A program made the position numbers and the translations under genes. Under the pieces are notes generated by a model. The model was not told the origin of the DNA, searched no databases, and saw only the letters and a program-made list of their open reading frames with translations. Shown here in pieces: positions 3,586 to 59,352 of a stretch of DNA of 64,000 bases (within the stretch, counting starts at the first letter, position 1; every line of letters begins with the position of its first letter). Origin of the DNA: Nelumbo lutea (lineage: Eukaryota; Streptophyta; Magnoliopsida; Proteales; Nelumbonaceae); NCBI GenBank assembly GCA_022828595.1, contig JAKGHH010000004.1, positions 52,316,922 to 52,380,921 on the forward strand. Direction: 5' to 3'.

Positions 3586-4076
3586 CTTTGCGTAAAACAA
3601 ATAGTTAAAAATAATTTAACTTAATTTGTGTAATCCAAACAAATAATTTCAGGAAATTAAATTTTGAAAACTAATAATTATAGCTTATTAAAAATAACTC
3701 AAAATTTCCCGAAGATCGTAATTCATTACGTTAATTAAATTTAGAAAACTAATAATTATTACTTAATTTCATTTTTTATTAAATCAAATAAATAAAAATA
3801 ATTTAAGTTACTTAATTTTGGTGTAATTAAAACTAATAATGTGTGTTATTTGATAATTTCAAAAGAAAATAATAAATTCCTTTAAATTAACTTAAAATTT
3901 CCTCAACATTTTAATTAATTACATTAATTAATATATCATTAATTTTGGAGAAAATAATATCCCTTAATTAAAACAGATAATAATTACCAGTCATTTAATT
4001 TTGATATAATTAAAAGGAACAATTTCAGTAATTTGATAGTTTTAGGAAATTAATAATTATCAGTTATTAAAAATAA

Positions 4077-4143
4077 GGTAATTGTCCAAAACCCACCATC
4101 ACTTTTTTTGAATTCTGTTAAACCCACCACAACTTTTCAAAAC
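4077..4143. repeat. left terminal inverted repeat of the Pack-type element
   Basis: It begins GGTAATTGTCCAAAACCCAC and pairs with the reverse complement of 5854-5921, which begins GGGAAATTGACGAAAACCCA. Mismatches are few over 67 bp. Confidence 0.75.
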
Positions 4144-4439
4144 ATCTACCATGTCAGTGAGATTTTACTTTCTAAAACTCACCATCCATTACAACACCGT
4201 TAAAATTGAATGACCCAAGTTGTCCACGTCAACCTAAATGCATATTTAATGACTAAACTTCCCCTGAATGGTGAGTCGGACTGTTAAACAATGTTTCTTG
4301 ACCGAACTCTTGGATTTTGGATAAGTTTGGAAGCAGCACTGAAACAACAAACCTTGCGTCATCTGAATCCCAATATAAGATCTTTGACGGTAGTTCTTTG
4401 GCTTCTTAATCTCAATGGTGGTCTTTCCCTGGAAAAATA

Positions 4440-4680
4440 GAGGAAGCAGGGAAGAAAGAATTGGTGTTTTCTGAATCCAGGTTTGGAGGTCTTCCTATTG
4501 AAGTGGAAGATTTCAGTGTTCAGGGGATGAGGTTGTAGAAACAGAGTTTTCTTTCTGAGCAAAGCAAGAGGTTGCAGGAAAAGAAGAGTGAGAGCATACC
4601 TAATAATACGACTGGTGAGCCAGTTATTTCCCCAAGAAAGGTCATGGAAAGCCTAGAATAACTAGTCCCCCAAGAAGACA
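4440..4680 (+). other. possible second captured fragment, unrecognised
   Basis: Upstream of the LAX exon one plus frame reads fairly openly. It gives FGGLPIEVEDFSVQGMRL, then after one stop SFLSEQSKRLQEKKSESI. The composition is gene-like and hydrophilic. I do not recognise a family. It may be a second host fragment carried by the TIR element, or chance. Confidence 0.25.
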
Positions 4681-4853
4681 AACCCATCACTGGCGCACGG
4701 CTGGCGTGACGCTGTCGTTATCTTGATGCTCATTCATTAGGTCCGTTCCCGTCGGCGCGCCTGTTTTCATTTTATTTGGGCGTACTTAGCCTTGTTGAAT
4801 GATTGAATTTACAATGCTCTGCCATTTTGGATTTTTTTGTTCACCGTGGGCAG

Positions 4854-5111
4854 TTCATAACATTTGGGTTCGCATGTACGCCGTTGTATTTCGTATGGGG
4901 GAAGGTGATTGGGATGCACAATACCAAGAGTATATGCTTGAGGGCACTGGCCAGGCTGCCGGTGGTCATCCCCATTTGGTTCTTGTCCATTATTTTTCCT
5001 TTCTTCAGTCCCATCAACTCCGTCGTCGGTGCTCTCCTGGTCAACTTCACCGTATACATCATACCTGCCATGGCTCATATGCTCACTTACAGAAAGGCCT
5101 CTGCTTTCCAA
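4854..5111 (+). pseudogene. captured AUX1/LAX auxin influx carrier exon
   Basis: The stretch encodes 86 codons matching one internal exon of plant AUX1/LAX proteins, the amino-acid/auxin permease family that imports auxin at the plasma membrane. Readable family blocks are FITFGFACTPLYFVW, KVIGMHNTKSICLRALARLP, VVIPIWFLSIIFPFF and FTVYIIPAMAHMLTYRKASA. These cover the later transmembrane segments. The exon is preceded by a 3' splice-site-like 'cag' and followed by 'gtaacc', and intron-like sequence lies on both sides, so genomic DNA and not cDNA was captured. The frame is open across the exon with a few substitutions (for example G in place of the family's E in FVWEK). No other LAX exon is visible, so no functional carrier can be made. 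It lies inside the TIR element 4077-5921. Confidence 0.9.
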
Positions 5112-5853
5112 GTAACCTACTCTCTCTTCCTCTGCATTGCCCATTAATTTGCTCTGTCTTCTCTCTATCTGTTTTTTCTCTCAAGTTTTCAGTGCATCTA
5201 CAATATCGTAATTGTCTTCTATTGCCCATTAATTTCCTGCAACCTCCTGCAATGTCGTAATTGTCTTCTATTAGGAGTTCTAGGAAGACAGATTTTCATG
5301 TTGGTTCATTGATGAAGATGGTAGACAATTGTGGCTTTGGTAGTTCTCTAAAGCACAATGTTATCGAGTTGGGTTTGTCAGATGAAGGAAAAATCCTGTG
5401 AAGGAACATTAATGGTGTATGTGTCTATGCATAAACATGAGCAGCAATATTTCAAATGTTTCTATTATTAGACAATGAGAGAGGCAATAATCGACCATTC
5501 TTCTTCTCAGACGATGAGGAGAAGCAGCGGTGGTGAGAAGTTGCGGACTGTACTCTGACTGCTCCTCTTCTCAGACGATGGGAACAGTCTTCAGGAGGAT
5601 CCGACAGATGTTCTTCTTCTCAGGCTGTTCTTCTCATACGCATCCTATTCTTCTTCAAGTTCTCAAATGAAGGGGAAGCAGCGACCGATGGGAAAAGAAA
5701 GTAGCGGCTAATGCTTGGGTTTTGGGCTGAAGCTTGATGGGGTAATTTTGGTATATTGTAAAATAGACCGAATACAATGAAGGGTAAAATGGTAAATTGA
5801 CGTTGCACGTTAGTCAAGTTACCATTATCTCACTTACATGGTGAGTTTTGGAC

Positions 5854-5921
5854 GTTTTGAAAATTTGTGGTGGGTTTAAGAGAATTCAAAAAAAGTGATG
5901 GTGGGTTTTCGTCAATTTCCC
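5854..5921. repeat. right terminal inverted repeat of the Pack-type element
   Basis: Reverse complement of the left end (4077-4143), including the block 'tcaaaaaaagtgatggtggg'. Confidence 0.75.
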
Positions 5922-6345
5922 TTTATTTATCTGATAATTTCCCGAAATTGTAATTAACTGCACTAATTAATATTTTGTTTTCAGAGAAAATAATTTACCT
6001 TAATTTATTTTGGTGTAATTAAAATAGATTGTTTTAGGTATTTGTAATAATTTCCCGAAATTGTAATTAATTACATTAATTAATATTTTGTTATTTTTTG
6101 AGAAAATAATATTCCTTAAATAAAACAAATAATAATTATCAGTTATTTAACTTTGGTGTAATTAAAAATAATTTCAGTTATTTGATAATTTCAGGAAATT
6201 AATTTAAAATAACTCAAAATTTTCTGAAAATTGTAATTAATTACATTAATTAATATTTGGTTTATTTTAGAAAATAAATTCCATCAATTAAAACAAATAA
6301 TAATTATTAGTTAGTTAATTAATAATTTCAATGGAAAATTAATTC

Positions 6346-6875
6346 TCAATAATTTTTTATAATTGTGAATTACTGAAAATTATCAAAAGTTAGTGTAATT
6401 TATTGTTATTTAATTAGTATATATTATTATCTACTTTACTTTTATTCAATTAACAAAAATTAATGTTATTTTTGTTTGTTGTAACTTTTATTGTTATTAA
6501 TTTTTATTGTAGTTTACAATTATTTTTTTATTTATAACCATTATTTATTGAAAATGATCAGAAATTAGTGTAATTTATAACTATTCAAATTGTCACTTGG
6601 TCAATATTGCTGGTCCAGTTTGCATGAAACCAGCCATCTAGTAAAAAACCATCCAACTTGGTGGTTGAACCATTAACATATTCGACCCGACCATTAAGTC
6701 ACGGATTGCACACTCAATGTATGTGCAAAATTCTAGAGGCCATAACTTTGCGCTTAGATGTCAAATTCAGGTGATCTTTTTTATTCCTTTGATTTTGGGT
6801 AACTTTTTGAGGTCTATGTATCCCAAGCCATCAAACAACCCACTATTTTTGCCAAAAAAAAAACCTCTTTAGGGA
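6346..6875. other. intergenic, no gene seen
   Basis: AT-rich sequence without recognisable coding or repeat structure. Confidence 0.5.
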
Positions 6876-12250: not shown

Positions 12251-13653
12251 AGTCTTTAAATGCATTTTTTAAAACTTAGTGGACCAATCAGTTTATCAAA
12301 CAAGATAGGATTAACTACTGAACACAATAATTGTTTAGCAGGTTGTGGAATTAATGGTAATGCCCCACAATACAACTATAGCATTAAAGCAAATCCAGTT
12401 ATCTGAATTCTTACCAAACTGTCTAGATCAAGATCAGGTTCAGCACAAATGGTGCTCACATTGTACTCAAAGTAGCGTGCAAGTGTGCATTGGAAATATC
12501 TCCCTATGAATAAAAATATACAAGTATAGAGATATTCTCATTACACAATTGTAAGTGGTTGTGAGTACAATGTGTAGGAGGGGTAAGGCTGGGGTGAGGA
12601 GTGGTCTCTTTGAAAGACAGAGAAGGGTCTTGTGGACAAAGAAGTGAGGATCTTTGGGTTGAAGATGTAGGAAATAGGAATAACTCGGGGGTACTAGGTA
12701 ATAGATTGCTTGGAATCAGATGATTGTGATACGAGGAGGATCCCTATTTATGGAAGGGATCCCAAGATCCTAAAAGGTAGGAGATGAGGATATTCGCTCC
12801 GTATCGAAAAAGGGAATATTTGATTCGTTGTCAATTATTGGATGCGCTACTGGGGTATCGCCACATGTTTCATGGGGATCCTCTCAGGGATTGGCTTTTC
12901 TTATCATCGAGATCCCTCATTATTCACGTGTGCTATTGCTTTTTTGCGCGTTATAACTAATCTTATGTGGCAATGGTAATGTCATTGTTTTGGTGGTTGA
13001 TACTTTGTTGATTCCACGTGGTGGCTCACAGGGTTCTTTGCTATCGTGGGTTCGTATGCTTTTGGGCACACACGGGCCTCGCCATGGGCTCGGCCTGCTG
13101 TCCCTTCTAACCTGTCGTCAAGAGTGGGTTTGCAGGCTGTGAGTTCATCGCACGTTGTAGCAGGTGTAGCTTCATTGCACGCTCAGGTGGGCTTGGGTCC
13201 TTTGGACGGGTCCCTATGGGGTTTTTTAGGTTCGGGCACTGATTGGGCTCGGTGGACCGCAAATTTATCATGGTTTTGTTTCATGTATTGTGAATTTATC
13301 ACAGAGGTGACAGTGTGTCTCAAGTTGATCGCAACATGGGGGTCGATTGCAGGTTGCTCGCATATGCTTCTGTGGTGTTAGTCTTGATGTTTGAGTGTTC
13401 TTTAAAGGTCTGAGTAAACGGTATATACCTACACAATGTAAACATTGTTTTGTGAGGATTGAACTCGAATTCATTTTGATCTTAATCCCATAAGTTCATT
13501 ACCTCTTTTGGCCAAAAGGGCACTTACTTTTCCACTTTTGGAAACACACAACTTGGCTCAGCCCTCTCGTAAGAAGACAAACAGACGAGACATTGAGATC
13601 AGATTTGGTCCTCATAGAAGCATGTTTACACTATCCTCGTATAAATTGGGATT
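12251..13653. other. intergenic, no gene seen
   Basis: Mixed composition with GC-richer parts at 12780-13380, perhaps old LTR material. No protein was recognised and no clear ends were seen. Confidence 0.4.
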
Positions 13654-14053
13654 TGCTCCTTAGAACAATCTCACAGCCACGTTCCACCGTATATTGAAAA
13701 TATTTCTCCATAGATAATAAATACAAATACCGGGAGATGTTTTAAATATGCAAAAAGGACATTCCGTGAAATCAATGTATGGAGCTTTGCTCCTTAGACC
13801 AATCTCACAGCCACGTTCCACCGTATATTGAAAATATTTCTCCATAGATAATAAATACAAATACCGGGAGATGTTTTAAATATGCAAAAAGGACATTCCG
13901 TGAAATCAATGTATGGAGCTTTGCTCCTTAGACCAATCTCACAGCCACGTTCCACCGTATATTGAAAATATTTCTCCATAGATAATAAATATAAATACCG
14001 GGAGATGTTTTAAATATGCAAAAAGGACATTCCGTGAAATCAATGTATGGAGC
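13654..14053. repeat. tandem repeat, 134-bp unit, three copies
   Basis: The word 'tcacagccacg' recurs at 13671, 13805 and 13939, a period of exactly 134 bp. The three units are almost identical: one substitution marks unit 1 ('gaacaatc' against 'gaccaatc') and one marks unit 3 ('aaatataaatacc'). The third is followed by unique DNA after 'atggagc'. The short minus-strand frames inside are by-products. It ends about 200 bp before the putative TATA box of the DUF639 gene. Confidence 0.9.
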
Positions 14054-23600: not shown

Positions 23601-26600
23601 GTTCGGCTACCAGACCTGCCGATTAGGGGTGTGGTGAGCTTCACCCGTTTTTTCTATTCTGTTGGAGGGTCATATGACCTCTGTACAACTGTAGGTCATA
23701 CAAACCTGATTGTGTACTGCAACTGCAATGTTCTTTTCTTGGATTCCTACAAGACCGTAGGTTATACAGACAAGGGGGAAGTACTGCCATAGTAGTGTAC
23801 TGCCACAACAGTGTTCAGTCTTTGCTCCCAGTGAAACCGTAGGTCAGAAGGACCTGTTTCTATAATAGCCTTGTACGGAAGTGCTCCTTTGGTTGCTGTT
23901 TTTTTTTTTTTTTAAAACCAGAAATCATGAGTAGTGAAGATTCAGCCTCATCTGGAGTTTCCTCAATGCTGAATGGAATGGGTGGGGGTGACCTATCCTT
24001 TCTTATGGCTGTTGACCCTCTTGATGGTTTAAATTACCTAGAGTGGTCAAGAGGGATCAAGTTATACATCACTGCAAGGGGGAAGATAGGCTATATTAAT
24101 GGGAGGATAAAAGAACCATCCTCCGGGAGTGCTGAATTTGACAGATGGAATCAGGAGAACAATATTGTTATGTCCTGGCTCTTGGTTTCCATGCAACCTC
24201 AAATCAGGAAGAATTTCATGTGGGCTGAAACTGCGAATGAAATTTGGGAACAAGCAAAGTCTACATATTCAGAATTGAGACACTATGCCAAAATTTATCA
24301 ACTGTAGGCAACATCTTCCACTTGTAGACAAGGGGAGAGGTGTTTATCGGTCTATTACTCTGACTTAACATCTGCCTGGAAGGAGTTGGATCACTACCAG
24401 AGTGTGGATTGGAAGTGTGATGAGGATGCTAAGAAGTACAAACAGATTGTCTCCCAGCAAAGGGCGTTTGCATTCTTACATGGTCTGAATCCTATGTATG
24501 AATCTATCAGAGTTCAGATTCTCAGCTCTAAGGATCTCCCTTTTGTTCAGGAAGTCTATGCTCCTGTACAATCTGAAGAAAGCAGGAGAAATTTGATGAA
24601 CAACCCTGATGGGGATGCTGTTGTGTTAGTTGCAAAAGGGGGTGTATCTACTGGTGGGGGGATCTTCTTCCCGGAAAGGAGATCTCCAGAAAAAAACAGA
24701 AGATAAGGAAAAATTGTGGTGCACTCATTGCCAGAAACCCCGACACACCAAAGATACGTGTTGGGATCTTCATGGGAAACCAAAATGGGCTCAAGATCTG
24801 ACTAAGAAGCAAGGTTCAGAGGTGAATAAGAAGTACGGGCAGCAAAATACAAAGAAACATCACATGACCAACATGGCTACTCGGGAGCATCAGCCCACCA
24901 TTTCTACTGTGACTCAGACACATCTCACTGGACCTGACCCGAGGGAGGACATTATGAATTCCTTCCGTGACCATTTAAAGCTCTATGGTAGAGCAATTCG
25001 TCAGATGAATACTCCTCCCTCAACCTCATTTGCATCTACGTCAGGTAACCTTGCCACTGCTTTCCATGTTGTTTCTCACACCCATGACTCTCCATGGATC
25101 ATTGATTCTGGAGCATCAAAACATATGACTGGTACGTCCTCTTACTTTCAAACCTATCACCCTCTTTCTGGAAGAGACAAGGTGAGACTAGCCGATGGAT
25201 CATACTCTTCCATAGCTGGTCAAGGAACTCTCTCTCTTCCTCTTGGCCTTACCCTCTCTGATGTTCTTCATGTTCCAAACTTTCCCATTAATTTGTTCTC
25301 TGTTAGTAGTGTTACTAATTCCTTGAATTGCTCAGTGACTTTTTTCCCTTCTCATTGTGTGATTCAGGATCTGGCCTTGGGGAGGATGATTGGTAGGGGT
25401 CGTATGGTTGATGGACTTTACATGCTGGAGAATAAGGCTGGTCTTCATGTTACAGAGTCTATGAGTCAGTCCTGTAAGAAAAAAGTCTATTTATGGCATT
25501 GTCGTCTTGGTCATTTGTCTTTTGAGTCTTTGAAAGTTGTATTCCCAGAACTGTTTAAGTCAATGTTTGTCTCTGACTTTTCTTGTCAAACGTGTCAGTT
25601 GAGTAAACATTGTAGAACTCATTTTCTTCAAAGACATAGTAAATCTGAATCTCCATTTCACATTGTTCATTCTGATGTGTGGGGTTACTTTACCATCTGA
25701 GAGTGGCTACAAGTATTTCATTACCCTCGTTGATGATTATTTTAGATTTACGTGGGTATACCCGATGCGAACCAGGGAAGAAGTACCAAAAATCATTCAA
25801 GATTTCCAGCGGATGGTCTTCACTCAATTTCAAACTGAAATCCAAAATTTTCAATCAGATAATGCAAAGGAATTTTTTCATAGTGACCTCACGGAATTTT
25901 TTGCTTCGCATGGTTCCCTTCTCCGTAGCTCTTGTGCGCACACACCACAACAAAATGGTGTGGCCGAACGGAAGAACCGACATCTCCTTGAAGTGGCTCG
26001 AAGTTTACTACTTCATATGAATGTTCCCAAACGGTTTTGGCTTGAAGCTGTTCTTTGTTCCACTTACCTTATAAATCGTATGCCCTCTCGTTGGTTAGAG
26101 TACAAAGCCCCACATCAACTTCTCTTTCCTAAGGCTCCCCTTCTTTTTATTCCTCTTCGTGTCTTTAGTTGTCGGTGTTTTGTTCAAAATCTGTCTCCCA
26201 CCCGTGGGAAATTGGACTCTCGTGCTATACCTTGCATATTTCTTGGTTACTCCTTCACTCAAAAGGGCTACCGTGTTTTTGATCCTGTTTCTCGTAAATT
26301 CTATGTCTCCATGGAGGTTTCTTTCTTTGAAGATAAGCCTTTCTATCCTGTTTCTCCTCAGGGGGAGTGTAGACATGAGGAGAAACTAGTTCAGCTTCCC
26401 TCTCTCCTTGACCCTCCACCTTTTCGTGTTTTTTCTCATCGCCGCAAAGGCCAGCCAAATCCAAGAGCTCAAATCCAAGAGTTGTAGATGAAAGAATGGT
26501 AGGATCCATCTAATGGACGCCATAAAGGTTGCGGAATGGGTGGGCGAATTTCAAAAATTTCCTACCTTCTCTCAATTGGGAATCATATTCCCTAAATTTA

Positions 26601-27764
26601 GAATACAATATTCAAGGATCCTACTTGAACCATAATCAAACCAGATCTGTACCAAAAGATAAATGGGAGGAATATACCTGATCCGGAGAAGCAGTCTCTC
26701 CCAAAGTTGGTGTTCACGCCCAAAGGATGCTCCAAGATCCGTTCCTGCTGAAGATGACACAGCTGTGAATGGAACAGAACCAGCAGGGTGCGTCCTACAC
26801 ACTGGATCCTTCACAAGAATCCTTTGGAAGTACTAAACACTGAATCCTTTTCAGTCTTTCTTGCAAGACTGATGTCAAGAACAGATTTCTTGACTTTCTT
26901 TTCCGCAAAGATCTAATCTTGCAATGGCAGATGGCGGCGGCAGGAGGAGATCTCCAAAACGAAAAAGGCTGAACTTCTTTTTCTGTTTTTCTGGAGAGTA
27001 TGAATGAGAGCCCCTCTCAATTCGCAGGAGATATCCTATACCTCTTCAAGGTGGTTCGAAATCTCCTCCTTTCTTCTTGATTAAGAAACCTCCTTTTTAG
27101 GAGTTATCCCAATCCAAATCAGTATTTGGATAGAGGATAATCTTAATCCTTTCTGCAGATAGAGTTAGCTTACTCCTGATCTTATCAGGAGGTTACCAGA
27201 TTCAAATCTAATTTGAATTTGGTCTCTGAGAGTGGATAAGGCTAAGGCCCAATCCTTTTACTAACTTTAATCTCAAATTCGCCCCATGGATGGGTGATCA
27301 TATCAGCCCACCTCGAAATGGGCTTTTGGCCCATTAAGTGTTCAGTGTCTAATTACTTTCCAATCTGCTGCCCAGTTGGGCTTCTTTGTATGGCGTGGGA
27401 CCCAAGCATTGATCTACACACCAGCCACATGGGTTCGGCCCAACCTCTAAAACAAGGCCCAGCCGAATTCACTGAAAAACTCAATGAACCCCTTGAGTCC
27501 ATCATATGGACCCTATGGGCCCAACACTTACATTAAGTGGTCCCTGGGCCAAGCCATCTTATAAAAACCCAGGGACTGTGGGCAGGTGCAAGATTAGCCC
27601 ATCAGGTATTTATCCTCAATGGTCTTACACTTAACCTCTCAGCCCTTAATGATCAAGCACTGCCCGACAAGAGAGGACCTCTCCCTCGGCTGCAAGGAAC
27701 AGTGCCACACTCTCCTCTCACATGGATCCCGGGAATTAAAACCATTTGCAAACAATTCGAAACC

Positions 27765-27815
<51 letters not shown>

Positions 27816-30800
27816 TATTAATTTTGCAAAACAAAATTCCAACGATTGAAATCAACTGCCGGCAGTTTGGTTTCCATCAGAGAGAGTGCATTCCCGATCA
27901 TTACCCTTTGTCCGACAAAGTGGCTGATTCTGTCACTATGATCACCCACTCAGATGAATTCTCAAACTGCCCCAACATACCCAGGTTTTGATCCCCGCTA
28001 AGGATCTCACTGAATGGCATATCAAAGGCAGCCTGATCCAACACCTAGTGAAATGTCATAATCGAGTCTAGGGGTCAGGTGTAACTTTCCAGTTTTGCCC
28101 ATCTATCTCCAAGGTCCAGGGCAATACTGGAAATCTGGTCCGGTTCAAGGATTCAAGTAATCCCATACTGCATGTGCCTCGGGTCTTACCCTGATGGCTG
28201 AGACAGGCCATCCCAACACTTGGTAGCACACCAGTATCAGCCTTGGCAGGATAAATCTCCCCAGACTTATCCAACGGCTGTGAACATTTAAAACTAACAT
28301 GAGTCTATAAATGTCCAGTTTTAGGGTTTTACACAGAATTAAACCAAACAACATGAATCAAACATGCACTTTATTTATTTCCACTAAATAATAAAAGTAC
28401 ATCAAATCAGATTGAAGCTAAGGGCATACAAAACTGTCTAACAGTAGAGAATCTGGAAGCTGTACCTCTAGTGCCACCAGACTCCTCGAGGGAGGATCAT
28501 ACTCACTCAGGTATTTTAGCTCCCAATGATGCCTTTGAATCTATTGAAAATGATTCCTCTACTGCTAATGATCTTGACCGTCCTATTGCTCACAGGAAGG
28601 GTGTTAGATTGTGCACCACAAAACATCCCATTTCCAACTTTGTCTCCTAAGAGAACATTTCACCCTCATTCCGTGCATTCCTTACCTCTATTGACAGTGT
28701 CCCTATTCCTAAGAATGTGGCAGAAGCTCTTTCAGTTCCTGAATGGACAAATGCCATGAGGGAAGAAGTTAACGCCCTTCACAAAAATGGCACATGGGAA
28801 CTTGTTGATTTTCCTAAGGGAAAGGTTCCAGTTGGATGTAAATGGGTGTTCACAGTCAAGCATAAGGCTGATGGAACAGTGGAAAGGTATAAAGCTCGCT
28901 TAGTGGCAAAGGGATTTACTCAAGTGAGTGTATGGAGTTGATTATGTAGAAACTTTTGCCCCTGTTGCCAAGATGAATTCCATTAGAGTCATTTTCTCTC
29001 TTGCAGCCAATCTGGATTGGGTTTTACACCAGCTAGACATCAAGAATGCATTCTTGAATGGTGACCTTGAAGAGGAAGTGTACATGATTCAATGTCCTGG
29101 GTTTCTAGCCCAAGGCAATGAACAGAAAGTGTGCAAGTTGAAGAAGTCCTTATACGGGCTGAAACAATCACCAAGAGCTTGGTTCAGTAGATTCCATGTG
29201 GCAGTTCAGCAGAAAGGATACAGGCAATGTCAATCAGATCACACACTGTTCGTGAAAAAAGGAGAAGGTAAAATTGCTGCTCTAATTGTTTATGTGGATG
29301 ACATAATTGTTACTGGTGATTGGGAGGATGAAATTCAGAAATTGAAAATTTTCCTTGCAACTCAGTTTGAAGTAAAGGATCTAGGACCTGGCAGATACTT
29401 CATTGGAATTGAAGTTGCCCGATCAAAGAATGGTATCTTCATTTCTCAAAGGAAATATGTCCTAGATTTACTTCAGGACACTAGAAAGATGGGGGTGAAG
29501 CCAGTTGACTCTCCCATCGACCCCAACCATAAATTAGGTGACAACTGTGGTGAGTCACTCAAGAATGTGAAACAGTTTCAGAGGCTTGTAGGGAGATTGT
29601 TATACCTTTCTATGACTTGCCCAGGCATTGCATATGCTGTTGGCGTCCTCAGTCAATTCATGCATGCTCCTAGGTCTTCTCATCTTGAAGCAGTAGAGAG
29701 AATCCTTCGATATTTGAAGAAGTATTTGGGTACTGGTTTGTTGTTTCAAAAGCACGGACATTTGAAAGTTGAGGTTTATACAGATGCAGATTGGGCTGGA
29801 TCCCAAAGTGACAGAAAGTCTACTAGTGGCTACTGCACCTTTATAGGAGGGAACCTTGTTACATGGAGGAGTAAAAAGCAAAATGTGGTAGCTAGATCTA
29901 GTGCTGAAGTTGAATATCGTGCTATGGTCCACGGGGTTGCTGAAGGCATGTGGATAAAGAATTTGTTGGGGGAGTTGGGTTTCCCAGTGACCAAACCTAT
30001 AACTCTATTTTGTGATAACAAAACAGCTATTAGCATTGCTGCCAATCCGGTGCTACATGATAGAACAAAATACATCGAAGTTGAGAAGCATTTTATCAGA
30101 GAGAAAGTTATCACAGGCGAAGTGTGTACCCCCTATGTCACTTCTGAGAACCAGCTTGCAGACATCTTTACAAAGGGTTTAAACCTTTCCAGACATCATG
30201 ATCTTTGTGACAAGTTGGGCATGATTGATATCTATGCTCCAACTTGAGGGGGAGTGTTGTCAGTTGTTTATGTATTCAGGTTTAGTACCATAAGGGTATT
30301 GTTGTAATTTTTCCTTTGTTTACATTGTTCGGCTGTACTAGTATAAATAATAATAGATCATTCTTTCACCCCCTAAGTTCAGAAGGGGCTTTCAGTCCTC
30401 TCGGCTCTCCTCTCCTCTCTCCCTCTCTTCTCTCCTCTTGTCTCTTCAGTTGCTCTTGCTCTTGCTCAACAAGGATCAAAACCATAGGGGTGCGTCAGAG
30501 TCACAGTAGTAGAGGACTGAGTCTCCTGAGAGGCCATGTTTGCTGCATTGGACTTCCTTGGACCTTGTTGTCCTTGCTTCTTATTCTGATATGAACTCTG
30601 TTTCTTGTTCAACTCCTGAGCCCACTTCGGCTTCCCATGAAGTTTCCTAGCAAGTATCACGTGTGTGCCAAGGCTTCTGCCAATGAGTACACCATAGTTT
30701 GTCCTTATCGTCCACCCTTTTTTGAGAGTCTTCCTACTTAAAGGAATTTCCCCTACCTGTAATAATATTCCCTTTTGCTGCCAAAGCAACTGAATCCCCT

Positions 30801-33800: not shown

Positions 33801-36800
33801 ACCCCTCCTCGCAGCCCAACCAAGTCTTCAGTCTTCATCTGTGAGTGAATCTTCTTGGGTTGAAAAGTCCTCATCCCATGATTTGTTTCCTTCCTAACAG
33901 GTTTTCTTCAACTTCTATTCCTTTCTTTTTCTTTCGAATTCCTCAAAATCCCTTCTGGCACCTCTCCTTGCTTCTTTTCTTGAATTATTTAAAAGCTTTT
34001 CTAGAAATTGCTTCTCTACCAAAGAAAAATAACCCCAAAGCTTTACCAGCCTCAACATCTCTATCTGCAAGCCTCTTCACATCCAGGCTGCCTTCAGAGT
34101 CTACCTCTGGGACTGCAATTAGATTGCCATCTCTCTTTGAGACTTCGCAATCCTCCTTATCCTTTTTCTTTTTTCTTGAATTCTTCCAACCTCTCAAACT
34201 CTGCTTTGTGAATACTCACCACAGAAACATTAAGATTGTCAACACCATCCCCACCAAGAATCTTCTGGTTAATGACTTTCTTGCTTGCTCCTCTTCTTCT
34301 ATACACCCTTTTATGTTACTGCAAGGACCAGTTCTGATCAAGCCCTTCGTAGCATGCACCAGATGGGATTTACTAGCACCCCTAAGTTTCTTTGCATCCA
34401 CTACTCCATCTAAGACCATGGGAACTGGATAAACCTTATTTCTACCCAAATCAACTCCAATCTTACCCACTATCACTTCTTCAACTATCAAAATTTTTTT
34501 GTCTAACTTCTTTGAGAAATCACACAATCCTCCTCAACACCAATATGACCAGGCTCATAAATGTCATTAGATGCTTCCAAAACTTGTGGTACCACTGCTT
34601 GAGAAGAAGTCAATGTTGCTTTATGTTGAGTGGGCCGACTTGTGTTTAGTTTATTTTCTTTTAAATTAAGATGTTGTTGGGCCTTGGGCCCATTAGTTTT
34701 TATTTTTTAAAGAGCTGTAATTACTTAGTTTGAGTTGCTGCCCTACTAAGGGCATCCTTGTAATATCTCATACTTAAGATAATTATAAATAGAATGAGGG
34801 GCTGGCGGCTAGGGTTAAGTAAATCTATCCTAGTCGACCTTCTTCTCTTTTCTCCCCTTTCCTCTCTTGCTGAAATCCCCAACTTACTACTCTTCGTTTC
34901 ACAAGAAGCTTGGCTGAAATCAGCATATAAGGTTTTCTACTTGGTATCAGAGCAGGTTGAAGGTTCTTGAAGAGATTTATTCCTGCAGTCCTAGATCGGC
35001 CGACTGCATGGAGTTTTAAGAGGTTGATCGAAGCTTTCAGGTAAGCCCAGTTTTTGGATTTTCTTGTTGGATCTGTATGCCTTGTAGCTGGTCTAGGGTT
35101 TCTCATCAGAATCAGGAAAAACTAGAGAAAGGGGAAGAGTCCTGATTTTGTTGGACTCTTTAATTTTGACCTAGGTAGTGGTGCCCTATTTTTCTAGGGT
35201 TCCTCTGGGTTTTTTGTAAGGGGCGATTCAAGTTCCATGTGGTTTGGAGGCCTCTAGAGAGGGCAGTTGCTTCTTCTCTCTCTTCTTCCACCGAAAAGGA
35301 ATCTTTCGTGGGAAGAAAGTCCAGGACACCAAAGGAGTGTCGTCGGTTCCAGAAGGTATTCTGTTTATTCTTGTTGCATTTTTTAGTTGTTTTTTGGACC
35401 TCTTTGAGACACATGGAGGGACATAGAGTTGAATATAAGCCCGGGAATGAAATGAGACTAGTGAGAGGAGGTGCTGGAAACCCCTTCGAAGCCGGAACCA
35501 TTACTACAGTTAGGTTGGATGGTACAAATTACTTAGAATGGTCCCAATCTGCAAAGATGGCCATTGGGGCTCGTGGAAAACTGGGGTATATTACTGGTGA
35601 AGAGGTAAAACCCGAAACTGGCAACTCCCGGTGGGTGCAAGAAAATTATATGGTAATGACATTGTTGTGTAATTCTATGTTGCCACATATAAGTAAAAAC
35701 TTTTTATGGGCAAACACTGCTAAGGAGATATGGGATGGGGTTGTAGAGACCTATTCACAGAAGAAGAATGTTGCTAGGGCTTATCAACTGAGAAATCAGA
35801 TTATTGCTACTAGGCAGGGAGATAGATCTGTTGCAGCTTATTTTTCAGTCCTTAAGGTCCTATGGCAGGAGATTGACCATCTAGAGACCTTTGCTTGGGA
35901 AACCACCAAGGATGCAGCTACCTATCAAAAACACTTAGAGAAGTACAGGGTGTTCGAAATTCCTTGCTAGCCTTAACCCTGAGTATGACATTGCACGACA
36001 ACATCTTCTTTCCAGGGATAGTGTCACTCTCTCCCAAGCATATGCATTCGTCTCAGGAGAGGAGTGCAAGAGGGATGTAATGATGAAGAATCTCATGTCT
36101 GATCAGTCTGCTATGGTAAGTGCTGTGAAACCTAAACAGAATGGCAATGAGAACAAGAAGGAAGACAAAAGGGACTTAGTCTGTGACTACTGTAAGAAAC
36201 CAAAGCATACAAGAGATACTTGCTGGAAGCTTCACCCACATCTTGTGCCGACCAGATTGAAGAATAAGAGAGGAAATGCACATATGGCAGTTACTGGTGA
36301 CACTCCGACCCCCCTACTACAACTGCCTTGGAGTCTGTTGCAGCTGCTGCAGTAAGGTTCGAGCTTGAGAGGTTTGGGTTACTTCTGAATCAGAGGGATA
36401 CAGCTAGTTCCAATTCAGCCGCAACCGGACAACAAGGTACAGGTAGCACATGTGGAACTCACTCTACCTCCCTTGCCCACACAGGTAGTCCACATGTCAC
36501 TGCAAACTATGTTTCTGCTTTAGGTAAGGAGAGATCTCCTTGGATTATAGACTTTGGAGCCTCAGAGCACATGACCCATTGTTCCACCATTTTCTCCTCT
36601 TACCAGCTCAGTTCTGGTAGAGATAGGGTATTCACAGCTGATGGATCCCATGTTCCTATTGCTAGGAAGGGATTTGTCAAGATTAATGATTCCATTTGTT
36701 TACCCTCTGTCCTCCACGTTCCTAGATTGAGCACCAACTTATTATCTGTTAGTAGTTTGACTAAGAATCTGAACTGCTCAGTAATTTTTCTTCCTGGACA

Positions 36801-39800
36801 TTGTATTTTGCAGGATTTGGATTCAAAGAGGACGATTGAGAGTGGTCGTGAAGTGAATGGAATCTACCTCCTGGATACTCTTCCAATTCACCAAAGTCAT
36901 CATGTTTGCAAGGACAGTGAGTCAAAACTTGTGGATCGGATTATACTTTGGCATAATCGTCTGGGTCATTTGTCTTTTTTTTTTTAGTTCTTTGTTTCCA
37001 AAACTGTTTGAGTCTGTGAGTCTATCAAGGTTAAAGTGTGAAGGTTGTGAACTTGGAAAGCATTGTAGACACTCTTTTAAACCGAGTAATAAAAGATGTT
37101 TTTCTCTTTTTGATGTTATTCATTCGGATGTGTGGGGCCCTTATCATGTTCCCTCTATGGGAGGCTATCGCTATTTTATTCTGTTTGTGGATGATTTCTC
37201 TCGATATTCCTGGATTTACTTGATGAAATCACGTGATGAGGTACCATCCTTGGTGAGGCAATTCCATCAGATGGTATTAACACAGTTTGGAACTAGAACC
37301 AAGATGTTTAGATTTGACAATGCTAGAGAATATTTTGAGAGACATCTTGCCTCATATCTGTTGGAGTATGGTGTTGTCCATCAGAGTAGCTGCTCCTACA
37401 GTCCACAGCAGAATGGTGTTGCAGAGAGAAAGAACAGACACATTGTTGAGACGGCAAGAAGCATGATGATCACAGCGACAGTTCCGGTTCGGTTTTGGGG
37501 TGATGCTGTTCTCACAGCAGTATATCTGATTAACAGGATGCCTTCTCGTATACTTGGATTCAGCCCCCATTCAACCTTCTTTTTCCTCAGGGGGAGATGT
37601 TTCATATTCCCCTAAGGGTGTTTGGGTGTATCTACTTTGCACATATTCTTGGTCCTTACCGTTCGAAGCTTGATCCCAAGGCAAAGAAATGTGTCTTCCT
37701 TGGATATGTAGAGAATCAGAAAGGATACCGCTGCTATGATCCAGTTTCTGGGAACCGGTTTGTTACTATGGACGTCACCTTTTTTGAATCTACATACTTC
37801 TTCTCAAGGAATCCTTCTTAGGGGGAGTGTTTTGGGGAAGTAAGTCAGCAGTCTATCCCTCTCCCAATTCTAGTTCCTGTGTCTACTACTGTGCTTGACA
37901 ACCATCGGATGTCACCTACCTTGCCACCCCCTGTGCGTTCCGTCTCACAGTGTTACTCACGGCAGAGACTTCATAAGGAGGTTGATTCCACTACGGCAGA
38001 ACTCACATCACTTCCTGTCGATCCCTTGGAGACTCCAGATTCGGCTGATACATATCCAAGTATTCCTCTTGATCCCTCTACTATTTCAGTTCCCATTGGA
38101 CCCACTAACACTGTTACAGATAACCTTGATCTCCCTATTGCTCTTAGAAAAGGGAAGAGGAAGTGCACTGCTCATTGCATATCACAATACTTATCCTATA
38201 GTGGACTTTCTCCTTCCTACCGTGCTTTTCTCTCTTCTCTTGATTCCGTGTCTATACCCAAGGGTGTTAGTGAGGCTCTCTCCAAACCTGAGTGGAAGGC
38301 AGCTATGCAAGAAGAGATGGAAGCTTTGATTAAGAATCAGACATGGGAGATTGTGGACCTACCAGAAGGCAAGGAGACAGTTGGATGCAGATGGGTTTAC
38401 ATAGTAAAGTATAAGGCAGATGGAAGCATAGAGAGGTACAAGGCAAGACTTGTTGCAAAAGGATACACACAGACTTATGGCATTAATTATCTAGAGACCT
38501 TTGCACTAGTCACAAAGATGACCTATGTTCGGATACTCCTTTCTCTTGCTGCCTCATACTCTTGGCCCTTGTTTCAACTGGATGTGAAGAATGCTTTCCT
38601 AAATGGGGATCTACAAGAAGAGGTGTATATGGATCTTCCAGCTGGTTTTTATGATAATGCTAAAGAGGGAAAGGTATGCAAGCTGAAGAAGTCACTATAT
38701 GGCTTGAAACAATCCCCCAGAGCATGGTTCGACAGATTCAGAAAGGCCCTGATTGTTTTTGGCTACACTCAAACTCAATCTGATCACACCTTGTTTGTGA
38801 AGTGCAGGGGATCTTTGGTGTCAATCATAATTGTTTATGTGGATGATATTGTTGTCACTGGGAATGATTTGAGTGAGATTGATAGTCTGAAGAGGAACCT
38901 GCATAAGGAATTTGAGATTAAGGACCTTGGAGAACTGAGATACTTCTTAGGCATTGAAGTTGCAAGATCGAAACATGGAATTTTTATCTCTCAAAGGAAG
39001 TATGTCTTGGACATTCTCCAAGAAACAGGGAAACTTGGAACAAAGGCAGCTAGCACCCCCATTGATCAGAACCATAGAATCAATGCATCAGAAGGTGAAC
39101 CAGTAAAGGACCTCGGGAGGTACCAAAGACTTGTGGGTCGGCTACTATACTTGTGCATGACATGACCGGACATCTCCTATGCAATAAGTGTAGTGAGCCA
39201 ATACATGCATGCTCCACAAGACCAGCACTGGAAGGCAGTTGACAGGATCCTTGTTTATCTGAAGGGACATCCAGGTAGAGGCATATTGTTTACTGATCAT
39301 GGGCAGCTCAAGCTAGAGACCTATATAGATGCGGACTAGGCAGGATGCCTCGATGACAGAAGATCAACTTCAGGAGTGTGCACCCTAGTTGGGGGTAACC
39401 TAGTCTCATGGAAGAGTAAAAAACAAACAATTGTGGCAAGATCAAGTGTAGAAGCTGAATATAGGGCCATGGCACATGGAGTTTCAGAACTTCTCTGGAT
39501 CCATTATTTGTTGGAAGAAATCGGTGTTCAGGCAGAAGAACCTATGATGCTATACTGCGATAACCAGGCAACAATTAATATTGCTCATAATCCAATCCAG
39601 CATGACCGAACTAAGCACATTGAAGTAGATAGACATTTTATCAGAGAAAGGGTGACTTCTGGAGATGTTTGTCTTCCATACATTTCTTCTGATCTGCAGC
39701 TTGCTGATGTCCTCACAAAAGGCGTTGCAAAGAATAAGCTGGAGCATGATCTACGCAAGTTGGGGATGTATGACATCTACTCCCAACTTGAGGGGGAGTG

Positions 39801-42800
39801 TTGAGTGGGCCGACTTGTGTTTAGTTTATTTTCTTTTAAATTAAGATGTTGGGCCTTGGGCCCATTAGTTTTTATTTTTTAAAGAGCTGTAATTACTTAG
39901 TTTGAGTTGCCGCCCTACTAAGGGCATCCTTGTAATATCTCATACTTAAGATAATTATAAATAGAATGAGGGGCTGGCGGCTAGGGTTAAGTAAATCTAT
40001 CCTAGTCGACCTTCTTCTCTTTTCTCCCCTTTCCTCTCTTGCTGAAATCCCCAACTTTCTACTCTTCGTTTCACAAGAAGCTTGGCTGAAATCAGCACAT
40101 AAGTTTTCTACTCTTTAGGATACAAGGTCATGAGAGCCATAAAGCCAACTTTAGACTTGGGTTCATCTGAAAATCAATCAACATTCAAATTTGCTTCACT
40201 TGAAACTTTCTGGACCTCCTCATTTGACTTTTCATTCGATCCTTCACCATCACCTTCCCCTGTAGAATCTCCCACAATACGATCATTTGACGATTGCTCA
40301 TCACTTCCACCTTCCACCAGCTTGACAGTCTTTGGATGAGTCCTTGAAAATTTTCTAGGCTTCTCTCTTGACATCTTCAATTGTTTACTAGCCCTATTCC
40401 TTTTGGTTGAGGCCCCCAACTTCTTTGGGCCTTTTTTGAAATTTCCTAAAGATCCACTTTCTTTAAAAATCTTTAGCTTACCCCACCAAACTATAGACTT
40501 AGTCTTTAGACTTGATGGTCCCAGGTTTTCTAGGCTGCACCCATTAAAGTTAAGTTTAATAAAGCCTTCCTTTGGTGGTTTTCATTCTTTTTGGACCATG
40601 GGCTTCTTGAAGGAAGAACCAACTACTATTCCCCAATTCCTTATTATGTCCTTTGTTGAAAAAAGTGTGAAAGCCTCCAAAGGCTTTACCCAATGAACCT
40701 TTCTAACTGTAATGCACTCTTTTAATATTTCCTTATACCATCTGTTTGGGAAAATGAGGGTACACTTAGTATTGGAAACCAAGAAATAACTAAATGTGAC
40801 ATTTTTCAGTACCTTGGTTCAATAATTCAGAACAAGAGAGAGATTGAGGAGGATATCGCTCATAGAATTAGAGTAGGATGGGTAAAATGGAGGGATGCAT
40901 CTAGAGTTTTATGTGATAGGTAGGTAGCACTTAGGTTAAAAGAAATGTTCTTTCAAAGAGGCTGTGTTTGCTATGGATAGATCCAAAGCCCTAGGTCTTG
41001 ATGGTTTTACGGTGGCTTTTTATCAAGACTGCTGGGGAATTTTAAAGGATGACTTGCAGAAAGTGTTTAATGAATTTTTTTGGGAGAGGCATTATCAATC
41101 TGGGGCTTAACTTCACCTTTATTACCCTCATCCCCAAGAAGTCTGAAGCATTGCATCCGAAGGACTTTAGGTCTATCAGTCTAATCAATAGCCTGTATAA
41201 AATCATTGCCAAGGTGTTATCTAGGACAATTAGGGTTGTGCTTCCTTCTTTGATTCCTCCAACACAAGGAGCCTTTGTTCAGGATAAGAAAATTGTTGAT
41301 CAAATCTTAATTGCTAATGAATGTGCTGAGGACATAAGGAAGGAAGGGGTTGGTTTACAAGTTGGACCTCGAGAAGGCTTATGACTTGGTTGATTGGGGT
41401 TTTTTGTTGGAAGGAATGAAGAACTTTGGTTTACAAGTTGGACCTCGAGAAGGCTTAAGTCTTGTCATTATTCAATTTTGGTTAATGGAGCTGTAGTGGA
41501 TCACTTTCTAGCTATTAGGGGAATTAAACAGGGTGACCCCTTATCCCCCTTTCTTTTCACTTTGATTGCGGATGTGCTTGGGAGACTGATTACGAGGGTT
41601 AATGACAAAGGTCTAATGAAAGGTTGGAGAATTGGTACTGAGGAGATCCCTGCCATTCATCTTCAGTTTGTGGATGACACAATTTTGTTTAGTGATGGGA
41701 GTGATAGGAGATATGTGATAAGCTTAAAGTGGATTGTCATCTTATTTAAGAAAATGTCGAATTTGAAAGTGAATTGGGATAAGAGTTGTCTTGTGGGTTT
41801 GAACATGGAGGATAACCAAGTGTCTGAATGAGCTGATTTGTTGGGTTGTAAGGTGGATTACTTGCCTATGAGCTACTTGGGCTTGCCTTTAGGGGATAAT
41901 GCAAAGGGGTATAACTTCTGGAACCCAGTGGTTGAGAAGTTCACTAAGCATCTAGCTTCTTGGAAGAAGAGCTATTTATTCTTGGGGGGTAGGACCACCC
42001 TCATTAAGTCCACCCTTGCTAACTTGCCGATTTATTTCATGTCAGTTTTCAGAATTCTTGTTGAGATCAGCAAGAAGCTTGAAAAGTTGATGAGAGATTT
42101 TTTATGGAAGCCAGGGGAAGAAAAGAAAGATCATAGAGTTTGCTGGGATATTGTCAGAAGAAGCAAGAGGTTTGGTGGGCTTGGTTTGGGGAATATTCAG
42201 GAAAGAATTAGGGCTCTGTTGGCTAAGTGGTTATGGAGATTGCCTACTGAGAAGGACAAGGCGTGGGCTAAGGTGATAGTCAGTATTCACGGGCTTGCGG
42301 CTGATGGTTGGGATGCTGGCGTGCTGGCTAGGGCAACAAGAGCTTCTCGTTGGAAGTCTATCCATGCTATCTTGTCTTTATTCCCCGACCACATCAGGTA
42401 TAACCCTTGCTCTAATAATTCTATCAAAATTTGGGAGCATATTTGGTTGGATAACACCTCCCTCAAAGAGCTATACCCTTCTGTTTATGCTATCTCTAAT
42501 TGTAGGGGTGAACCTATCGCTTCATTTTTGCCTCCTTCTAATTCTACCTCCGGTTTTGGGTGGGCCTTAGAAGAGATCTCCATGACTGTGAGGTTGATAG
42601 AGCATTGAAGTTGATTCAAAACCTTGAGAATGTTTATTTAGATCCCTCTTGCATTGACTCTCGGGTCTGGATTCTCTCTCCATTGGGCATCTTGTTCCTT
42701 TTCTTTTTATCTTTATTGAATCCTACTATCCTAGTGACTTTGGGGGCCATCTGTTTCCGACGAAAGAAATCTGGAGTAAACCTATTCCACATAAGATTTG

Positions 42801-45800: not shown

Positions 45801-48800
45801 ATGCAATTCAAGTCTACCAACTCCAAAGGGAAGCCTACAATATGGCCTAAAAGGCTAATCTCAGACATTGAGAGAGATTTAGAATTTAGTGTTAGACAGT
45901 TTTGTATGCCCTTAGCTTCAATCAAGATGATGTACTTTATGAGTTTATTGTAAATGAATAAAAGTACATATTTGATTCATGTTCCCTTGGTATGTTTTTG
46001 TATCATACCCTTAAACTGGACACTTAATGAGACTCGTGTTAGTTTAGAACGTTCACAGCCAGTGGGCCGGTCTGGGGAGACCTGTCCTGACAAGGCTGAC
46101 ACTATGGTGCCACCAAGTCGGTTGGGGTGGCTTGTCTCAGCTGCCGGGGTGAGACCCTAGGCACTTACAGTGTAGGATTAATTGAATCTTTGAATTGGAC
46201 CAGATTTTCAGTATTGCCCTGGACCTTGGAGATTGATGGGCAAAACTAGAAAGTTACACCCGACCCCTAGACTTGATTATGATACTGCACTAGGTGTCGG
46301 ATTGGACTGTCTTTGATATACCAATTAGTGAGATCCTTAGCGGGGGTTAAAACCTGGGTACGTTGGGACAGTCTGAGAATTCATCTGAGTGGGTGATCAT
46401 AGTGACAGGATCAGCCCCTTTGTCGGACAAAGGCAATGATCGGGGATGCACTCTCACTGATGGAAACCAAGACTGCCGGTAGCCGATTTCAATCGTTGAG
46501 ATTTGTTTTGCAAAATATATTTTATATGAGATATAAAAGTATATATATTATGGTTTCTAAAAGGTTTGCAAAAGGTTTTAATTCCCGAGATCCATATAAG
46601 AGAGAGTGCAACACTGTTCCTTGCAGCCGAGTGAAATGTCATTTTTTGTCAGGCAGTGTATGATCATTATGTGCTGAGAGGTTAAGTGTAAGACCATTGA
46701 GGATAATACCTGATGGGTTAATCTTGCATCTGCCCACAGTCCCTGGGTGTTACAAGGTGGCTTGGCCCAGGGACCACTTAGGGTAAGTGTTGGGCCCATA
46801 GAGACCATGAGATGGTTTTTAGGGGGTGCACTGTCCATAACAGTGTATTCGGCCAGGCCTTGTAACAAAGGCTGGGCCGAACCCATGTGGCTGATGTGTA
46901 GATCAATGTTAGGGTCCCACGCCATACAAGGAAGCCCAACTGGACAACAGTTTGGAAGGTTAAATGAATACGTAACTTTAATGGGCCTTAAGCCCATTTC
47001 AAACTGGATCAGCTGATAAGTTTGGGCCCAGCTGATAAGTTTGGGCCCAGACCCTATCCACTTAGAGAGTCCAAGATCTAAATAAGATTTAGATCTGGAA
47101 GCCTCTTGATTAGATTAGGAGATGGCTGATCTAATCTGCAGATAAGATAAGGGTTATCCCTTATCACTTAAAGGGACTTCTAGTCCAAATATGATTTGGG
47201 TTAGCTACTCCTAATGGGATTAGGAGATAATCCCTTTGAGGTTATAAAAGGAGGAGGGGGCGGCAGCCTTTAGACATGCAACCAACACATTCTTGTCTTT
47301 AGAGCTGAGATTACAAGAAGAGAGAATTTTGCACCCTGCAAATACTCTTTTTCCGCCTGCTTCCTTCAGCAGCCGCCTCCAGTAGTTCGATCTCCAGTTT
47401 TTGGGAGAAATCAAGATTTGATCTTGATACTGATCTTTTGGAGAAAAGATTGGTTGGAGTTGTATTCACAATCCATCCAGTTGATTCTTGCGAAGGCTCA
47501 AGTTCTTTTGGAAGAACACTGCTGATTCTGCTCCACCCTGCACTGCGCCATATTCAGTGGGAGCAGATTTTGGATCATTCCTTTGGCGTGAAGACCTCCA
47601 TTGGGAGATACTATTTCTCCGTATCAGGTATAATCCCTCCCTACTCCTTTTGGTTCAGATCTGGTTCAGTTTATGGTTCAAGAATGATAATTAAAAATAT
47701 GATTTTCTAAATAGGGAATTCGATTCCTAGTTGAAGGGAGAGAAAAATTTTTGAAATTCGCACCCTTTATTCCGCAATCTTTGGGCGTCCATGTGATAGA
47801 TATCCTAAAGGAGCTAATCAAAGAATTTGAAAGTATTTCTAATTTGAGAATAAATTTGGAAAAGAGCTGTATGGTGGGTATAAATTTGGAGGTAGGGGAG
47901 GTCAAGGCTATTGTGGAGTGTCTTGAGTGTTCAACCTCTGCTTGGCCTATGTCATAATTAGGGCTTCCTTTAGGGGAAAATCATAGGGAGAATAGATTTT
48001 GGACCCCTGGTAGAAAAGTTTGAGAAGAGATTAGCCTCATTAAAGAGGTATTATGGCTCTTTAGGAGGGAGAATTACCCTAATAAGAGCTACCTTGGCTA
48101 ACTTACCTGCCTATTTTTTGTCTGTATTTAGGATACCAGTTAGGGAAGTTAGGAAACTGCAGAAGTTGATGAGAGATTTCTTATGGGAGCTGGGACAAGA
48201 AAAAAAGGATCACTTGGTTAATTGGGAAATTGTGTGCAGAAGTAAAGAAGAGGGGGGTTTGGGACTTGGGAGGGTAAGTGGAAAAAATCAAGCTCTGTTA
48301 GGGAAATGGTTGTGGTGATGACCATTGAAAAGAGATAGATTATGGCATGAGGTGGTGGGAAGCATTCATGGGATGTCAGAGAATGGATGGGATGCTAGTG
48401 TATCAAGGCAGGCTAACCTAGCAGCATCTTTGAAGGCCATTCACAACACCCTTCCTCAATTCCTCAATTTTATTAGGTATGAAGTTTGTTCTGGCAACGT
48501 TGTTCATTTTTGGGAGGATATTAGGGTAGGAGACACACCTTTAAAGGATTTGTTCCCATTGTTATTTTCTGTTTCTTTGTACAAAAAAGAGGTGGTCTCA
48601 AAATTTGTCTCACCTTTGGGAACACCCTTAGATCCTACTTGGGATTTTGGGTTTCGTAGAGGACTTAGGGATGATGAAATTGATATCTCTTTCTGTCTTG
48701 CTTGGTTGTCTTAATCAGGTTTGTTTGGATCCCTCCAAGCCAGATAAGAGGGTATGAACTCCTAGATCCAATGGAACCTTCACTTGTGCTTCTTTCTTCA

Positions 48801-58336: not shown

Positions 58337-59352
58337 GTGTGTTGTGAATTTTGTGCTCTTTACTGGACTTTGTTTCATGTTCTTATTACTAAATTAACTT
58401 TTAAAAATAGCTATTGCAATATCTATTTTTAAAACTTATAAGGAGAACTAAGAGTTCTTAGATAAGAACAGCATTTGAATTTACAAGAAAAGAAAAATTA
58501 CATGTCCTGTAATTAATAGAGAAATAATTATAAAAAAATTAGTAGAGGAGAAATGATGACATGTATCATTCAGTAAGCAGTACCCTTCTGGGCAATTTTG
58601 ATAAGAACTAAAGTTACATAGTTTTGTTAAGGTGTATAGGCAACTCTAGATGATAGTGGAGTGGCTAGTTGCACAAATTTCTAAAGAAGAAATACCTTAT
58701 CTAAGCTAATTTCCCAGTTCTGTATATCAGCCAACATGTATATAAAGTGAAAATTAGTTATTCTATCCAATAATAACAACGGATTTTATATTGAAACATG
58801 CAAAGTCATTATATTACAAATACAATAGCATTTTAAATCAATTCTTTCGATATTTCAAATAGAACATTATTATATAAGAAGTTGATAGGTTACTGCCTAT
58901 CACAGAGCTCTCTTCGAGGGAGAGCTAACCACCTCAAAATGGTGGGGGTGGGGAAATCGAGAGAAAGGAGGAAGATTGGATCTAACTTCTTTGCCTTCTC
59001 TTCCCTGGGCTAGATATTTATAATCATCTCTCTCCTCAATATATTCTGTTACATCAAATCATGCATTTTATTCCTTCTAACCATCTTAGGCATGTGGCTT
59101 CCTACTGTAGATTTGAGCGAAGAGTCTGGAAGTGGCTCAAGCTGAGATACCTTCCCACATGGACCTTCCTGAAAATGTTGGCCTATCAGAATTATTTCAT
59201 AGAAATTACAAGTCAAAAAACTAGTAGCAAATAAAGCAGGCTATATTTTTATACTAATAAAAGATTTAAGAGAGAGATAAGGAGAGAGTATTGAGGAGAA
59301 AAACAAGGTACCAAGCCCATGTTATATTTAATTCATAGTTGTCAACTAGTAT
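58337..59352. other. intron 7, left part, no element recognised
   Basis: AT-rich intron; a GC-richer patch near 58890-59040 could be old repeat material. No coding. Confidence 0.45.

Follow-up and report, generated by a model that had tools for sequence, protein, structure and literature searches.

A Pack-MULE of Nelumbo lutea with fragments of two host genes and patchwork filler at the joints of the second

Pack-MULEs are non-autonomous Mutator-like elements (MULEs) that carry captured fragments of host genes. MULE insertions are associated with target-site duplications (TSDs) of 9-11 bp (PMC3310237). Among putative genes derived from MULEs, 5-10% trace back to two or more parents in most Oryza species, and neutral evolution is reported for the majority (PMC4858842). 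The way in which Pack-MULEs acquire genes has been called not yet understood (PMC3310237) and perplexing (PMC8277862), and two models are in print (PMC8277862, PMC8903248). For the Pack-TIRs of animals, gap filling with template switching has been argued (PMC8277862). For Pack-TYPE elements, the argument is for fusion of neighboring insertions (PMC8903248). In the passages of PMC3310237 that use the term, "filler DNA" denotes a stuffer that makes up the size of an element rather than filler at a junction. A literature search on Pack-MULEs together with gap repair, template switching or filler DNA did not find templated junction filler, and we make no claim that it is unreported. No paper was found that combines gene capture, AUX1 and transposable elements.

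Here we analyze an element in a window of Nelumbo lutea DNA, i.e., the whole 64,000-nt stretch at positions 52,316,922 to 52,380,921 of contig JAKGHH010000004.1 (assembly GCA_022828595.1). This element is a non-autonomous Mutator-like element, that is, a Pack-MULE, and has taken up fragments of two unrelated host genes, the second being an auxin-importer (LAX) gene. Its kind is already known, and it is an ordinary gene-capturing transposon. With a donor gene, copies that lack the second fragment, copies that carry it and scarred joints, the predictions of the models can be checked at this family.

The element and its family

The features of the element are collected in Table 1. Alignments of its two ends give inverted repeats of ~70-95 bp. 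The sequence-only reading had proposed inverted ends of ~67 bp, and an ungapped pairing indeed yields 61 identical positions out of 67, while a gapped pairing reaches 84% over 94 columns, and an inverted-repeat search delimits 79-nt arms (4068-4146 and 5851-5929) that are 89% alike. In the 843.7 Mb assembly covered by our genome searches, a 27-nt core of the terminal inverted repeat (TIR) occurs 158 times with at most 3 mismatches (73 forward, 85 reverse), versus 0 times for a reversed control pattern; the inverted ends are thus not a product of chance. No stop-to-stop frame of at least 170 aa was found in 4077-5921 on either strand. The lack of a transposase, also proposed from sequence, therefore holds for frames of this length.

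Table 1. Positions of the element and its parts in the window
Feature	Position	Strand	Evidence or remark
Whole non-autonomous Mutator-like element (Pack-MULE)	4077..5921	+	TIRs, many family copies, 9-bp TSDs around sister copies
Left terminal inverted repeat	4077..4163	+	Start here GGTAATTGTCC; commonest family start GGGTAATTGTCC
Left part of captured fragment 1, from a CIP7-like (COP1-interacting protein 7) exon	4317..4654	+	92% to C8:1.356 Mb gene
Source sequence for the inverted copy in the right junction filler	4564..4581	+	Inverted-repeat pair, 94%
Left junction filler	4655..4696	+	11-nt inverted and 11-nt direct self-copy, then ~20 nt not traced to a source
LAX capture, tail of upstream LAX exon	4697..4740	+	Donor tail GWRDAAVILMLIHQ; last codon TAG here
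LAX capture, complete donor intron	4741..4853	+	Differs from L009 at 13/109 sites
LAX capture, whole exon of 86 open codons	4854..5111	+	Pfam, structures, donor comparison
LAX capture, start of next donor intron	5112..5223	+	Donor comparison
Right junction filler	5224..5272	+	12-nt intron piece copy, inverted 4564-4581, captured-intron-end copy
Right part of captured fragment 1, continuing the CIP7-like exon	5273..5385	+	91% to C8:1.356 Mb gene
Right terminal inverted repeat	5827..5921	-	Inverted-repeat alignment and family copies

Searching the genome with the whole element gave at least 117 matches, a lower bound, with 40 of 1316 candidates scored. Fifteen family copies were examined for TSDs. 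A perfect 9-bp TSD flanks eight of these (L011, L012, L013, L017, L018, L020, L021 and L028), including four of the eight that bear the LAX fragment. It is lacking in the window copy (L001), L016 (7/9 matches at the boundary), L019, L022, L025, L026 and L027. For the window copy, the two likely boundaries match at 4/9 and 3/9, and a scan of lengths 5-12 around both ends gave a best 9-mer of 7/9 that lies off the family boundary; i.e., there is no convincing TSD. The element is surrounded by AT-rich degenerate repeats (3600-4076 and 5921-6400), many of them about 113-193 nt apart, and these flanks may have obscured the duplication.

A 10.2 kb member of the family, at C1:144,560,035-144,570,265 (L062/L063), is flanked by the perfect 9-bp TSD AACAATTTA, and its ends are about 76-86% like those of the window element. 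This member encodes a MuDR-type transposase in broken frames, one stretch of which matches Pfam PF03108 (E 3.9e-10); a second stretch has no Pfam match. The 9-bp TSDs and this MuDR-type relative identify the family as Mutator-like. Stretches with MULE domains are abundant in the genome (150 of 326 candidates scored). Two further long TIR pairs were set aside: one of 5.9 kb (L059) has no frame of at least 120 aa, and one of 13.9 kb (L060/L061) has Copia-type frames, as judged by eye.

All 13 candidates were scored in a search with the captured LAX sequence, which returned 14 matches: eight element copies, the gene L009, two exons of its paralogue L010 (C2:55.6 Mb), and three further loci at 75-79% that we take as LAX genes by their exon. 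Five loci among these candidates are thereby taken as LAX genes. Among the element copies, L016, L018 and L022 have left flanks in common (C3:94.69-94.85 Mb), as do L017 and L021 in their flanks (C8:27.48-27.52 Mb), so the C3 trio and the C8 pair look like local duplicates. We judge the eight LAX-bearing copies to represent five independent sites: the window, C3, C8, L019 (C1), which has lost its right end, and L020 (C6). Three LAX-bearing insertions have the distinct TSDs TTTAAAAAA, TATCCTAAA and TTTTATTTA; the window copy and L019 are counted as separate by place and flanks alone.

Some observations on individual copies stand apart from this count. L016 and L018 (C3:94.85 and 94.84 Mb) are 0.8% apart in the LAX segment and 7.3% apart in the CIP7 parts, which makes them a mosaic, perhaps produced by gene conversion. 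L025, a member of about 3 kb, has at about 1675-2560 a short-period coding-like repeat whose frames are rich in GGELPGDELLGDELP; this may be one more captured gene. A candidate third captured gene in L012 (1638-1916 and a reverse-strand frame) has no Pfam match.

A plain LAX gene relic, with TIR-like sequence present by chance or through a later insertion, would fit the missing TSD of the window copy. The sequence-only reading had named this outcome for the case that the TIRs were absent elsewhere and the exon ran on into further LAX exons here. The TIRs are found at many places in the genome, and LAX is carried within the element by seven further copies. A search of the window with the donor's 353-aa partial protein found, beyond the exon, just 4697-4740 and one match at chance level (E 0.2), i.e., no other LAX exon. 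We regard such a relic as next to impossible, and the locus as a Pack-MULE.

Elsewhere in the window, three tandem copies of a 134-bp unit, matching at 99%, lie at 13652-14053. Copia-type retroelement frames occupy 24630-30247, 35179-39165 and 59878-61954, with RVT_2 recognized by Pfam in 28928-30247 and 60353-61954 and the others by eye. At 48758-49597 there is a non-LTR retroelement remnant (zf-RVT and RVT_3), which 41832-42608 resembles by eye, with no Pfam match. A frame at 57632-58432 has a sub-threshold match to the plant domain DUF639 (E 2.7e-6; 27.4 bits, cut-off 37.1). Scanned against Rfam, the window shows no match.

Two captures and their joints

The exon in the second fragment consists of 258 nt, or 86 open codons, preceded by AG and followed by GT. 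It matches Pfam Aa_trans (E 2.1e-16) and, among solved AUX1 structures, residues 322-407 of 9jdr_A (E 3.6e-47); LAX proteins of many flowering plants match at up to 94% among the 120 of 525 matches listed. The AUX1/LAX exon capture, splice borders and intron flanks proposed in the sequence-only reading are thus borne out, but the capture is larger, in that 527 nt (4697-5223) match the LAX gene L009 at C2:18,470,236-18,470,772. That is, the piece was taken from two exons and two introns of a gene on another chromosome, at whose locus further LAX exons are visible.

The distance between L009 and the captured segment is 0.172 for L022 and 0.096-0.120 for the other seven copies. In the introns, the copies differ from L009 by 0.11-0.17, with 0.302 for the second intron of L022. 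L010 differs from L009 by 0.231 and from the element copies by 0.25-0.30, and it was rejected as donor, given that its introns differ from those of L009 by 0.425 and 0.500. Among the loci found, the intron match is exclusive to L009, which makes it the donor that the earlier reading had proposed looking for. At 17 sites, all five lineages have a base in common that differs from L009, which points to one capture. L010 agrees with the elements at three of these sites, so it was the donor that changed there.

Beyond what the sequence-only reading described, a second host gene supplies sequence on both sides of the LAX piece. Element stretches 241-581 and 1192-1309 match, at 92% and 91%, a gene at C8:1.356 Mb (L015/L029). 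This locus was rejected as another element copy because its CIP7-like frame is open for 603 codons, counted from the start of the stretch examined. Its protein has 72 matches, two of them with a COP1-interacting-protein name; the best-scoring CIP7-like match with a species name is from Nelumbo, at 68% over 37% of the query. On the strength of these two match names, we take the gene as putatively CIP7.

Three copies (L011-L013) carry the CIP7 piece without LAX and keep CIP7 sequence where the other copies have LAX, which argues for a staged capture, with CIP7 first and LAX second. The replaced middle of the CIP7 piece measures 106-120 nt in these three copies and 286 nt in the gene, and either may be the ancestral state; its replacement, fillers included, is 619 nt long in the window copy. 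Relative to the gene, L011-L013 have an internal deletion of 166 nt between two AACTC repeats. The same deletion is found in L014/L030, in which a longer CIP7-like stretch is joined to the right part of the element (L030 4769-6485) and the left TIR is absent from the ~5.4 kb examined on that side. We read L014/L030 as a damaged family member whose CIP7-like stretch may be a vestige of the first capture. The tree built from the CIP7 parts has an almost star-like shape, with backbone supports of 19-63, and places L020 weakly (36) with a copy that lacks LAX. The tree being nearly unresolved, the proposed order rests on structure, not on the tree.

Both joints of the LAX piece hold patchwork filler from the element itself and from the captured intron. 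The left filler begins with an inverted and then a direct 11-nt copy of adjacent element sequence, which are exact in L020 and decayed in the window copy. Among 20,000 shuffles, none had two separate 10-mer copies and 58 had one. At the right joint, a 12-nt piece of the captured intron recurs, followed by an inverted copy of the left part of the element, a second copy of the captured intron end, and then CIP7. This filler is longest in L020 and shorter in the other copies; its inverted copy in L020 is 24 nt long and exact against L020 itself, and 21-31 nt long at 90-100% against other copies. None of 5,000 shuffles had an inverted copy of at least a 15-mer. We infer that the patchwork is the trace of repair synthesis with repeated template switching.

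The same structure might be sought in fusion, in which two MULEs flanked a LAX fragment, were mobilized jointly, and later lost their inner ends. Beyond the argument made for Pack-TYPE elements, neighboring copies do exist at C3 and C8, though they look like segmental duplicates. Fusion does not predict inverted self-copies at the joints. Moreover, the LAX piece lies between two halves of one CIP7 fragment with no TIR remnant adjoining it, and element sequence is absent, at E 1e-3, from the 9.9 kb around the LAX donor. We thus consider fusion highly improbable, and template-switching repair the preferred account of the joints.

Fate of the captured exon

As proposed from sequence, the window copy has an open exon frame, and so do L016/L018. 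In L017/L021 the last codon is a stop; L020 carries both a deletion and a stop, L022 carries indels, and L019 is truncated. Joined by the would-be splice, exon tail and exon are open for 131 codons in L016 and for 108 in L017. After 12 changes, a copy evolving neutrally would have a probability of 0.69 of containing no stop.

We counted changes from the majority ancestor in the five lineages, leaving out L022, L018 and L021 as duplicates. The total is 152, divided among the exon (73/1249), the two introns (31/545 and 27/586) and the exon tail (21/207). C to T or G to A accounts for 89 of the 152. Among the 73 exon changes, 43 are nonsynonymous or create a stop; the substitution pattern seen in the data would predict 48.2 (P 0.125), and purifying selection on the frame is thus not detected by this test. 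NG86 Ka/Ks values between element copies are 0.24-0.75 over ten pairs, i.e., below 1. Because NG86 ignores a strong transition bias (120 of the 152 changes), we prefer the pattern-based test, itself not a strong one.

These data bear on the idea that the element-borne exon has been domesticated, as a translated sequence or as a putative regulatory one, e.g., a source of small RNAs against LAX genes. The frames still open, the GT and AG borders that are kept, the sense orientation of both gene pieces, the 131 codons of L016 and the Ka/Ks values are what domestication would have in its favor. Against these, the exon evolves as fast as the introns, its share of amino-acid changes is indistinguishable from neutral, the frame is broken or stopped in five copies, and no frame in the window copy joins the CIP7 part to the exon. 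We hold domestication to be doubtful in the extreme. Given the intron-like rate and the near-neutral amino-acid share, the open frame is roughly what one would expect after neutral drift and means little; the captured exon is most likely without function and decaying. A transposon-borne exon can be open without having a function.

Proposed origin and comparison with known elements

The reading that we prefer, with a probability of about 0.9, is that of a Pack-MULE that captured CIP7 first and LAX second, gained LAX through template-switching repair, was later mobilized, and carries an exon without function. In this sequence of events, a piece of the CIP7-like exon would have entered a Mutator-like element, and a break or gap inside the loaded element, or perhaps an excision, would then have started repair synthesis. 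This synthesis would have snapped back onto the element itself and crossed to the LAX gene; it would next have returned to the element, copied the LAX intron again, and rejoined the element. A transposase from MuDR-type relatives with similar ends may then have moved the loaded element, with the captured exon most likely decaying, functionless, ever since. With L022 excluded, the captured segment diverges by 0.086-0.121 between copies at different sites. Plant rates are 5e-9 to 1.3e-8 per site and year, at which this divergence would correspond to roughly 4-12 million years, a figure for scale only, as the rate may not be that of the host.

The balance tips somewhat towards a more general proposition, namely that Pack-MULEs already carrying a captured piece can acquire a further one through serial template switching within the element, not by fusion, with snap-back self-copies left at both joints. 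If other joints in the family are alike, repair with repeated switching would be the general route of exon shuffling for such elements.

The animal Pack-TIRs attributed to gap filling resemble this element in their internal replacement, in template switching and, in multicopy cases, in a distant donor (PMC8277862). They differ in that, as the account in that paper has it, microhomology and nearby donors are stressed, whereas here we find inverted and direct self-copies, in a plant host. Pack-TYPE fusion elements are alike in the stepwise addition of gene pieces to the element interior (PMC8903248). In contrast to the elements described there, no second element or TIR lies beside the captured piece here, and filler is present. 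With Pack-MULEs the likeness is closest: it includes long TIRs, family TSDs of 9 bp, the capture of both exon and intron sequence, and donors that are still present (PMC3310237, PMC4858842), as well as more than one donor gene and mostly neutral decay (PMC4858842). The difference is just that the donor, the copies without the second capture and the templated joints are here all visible for one event.
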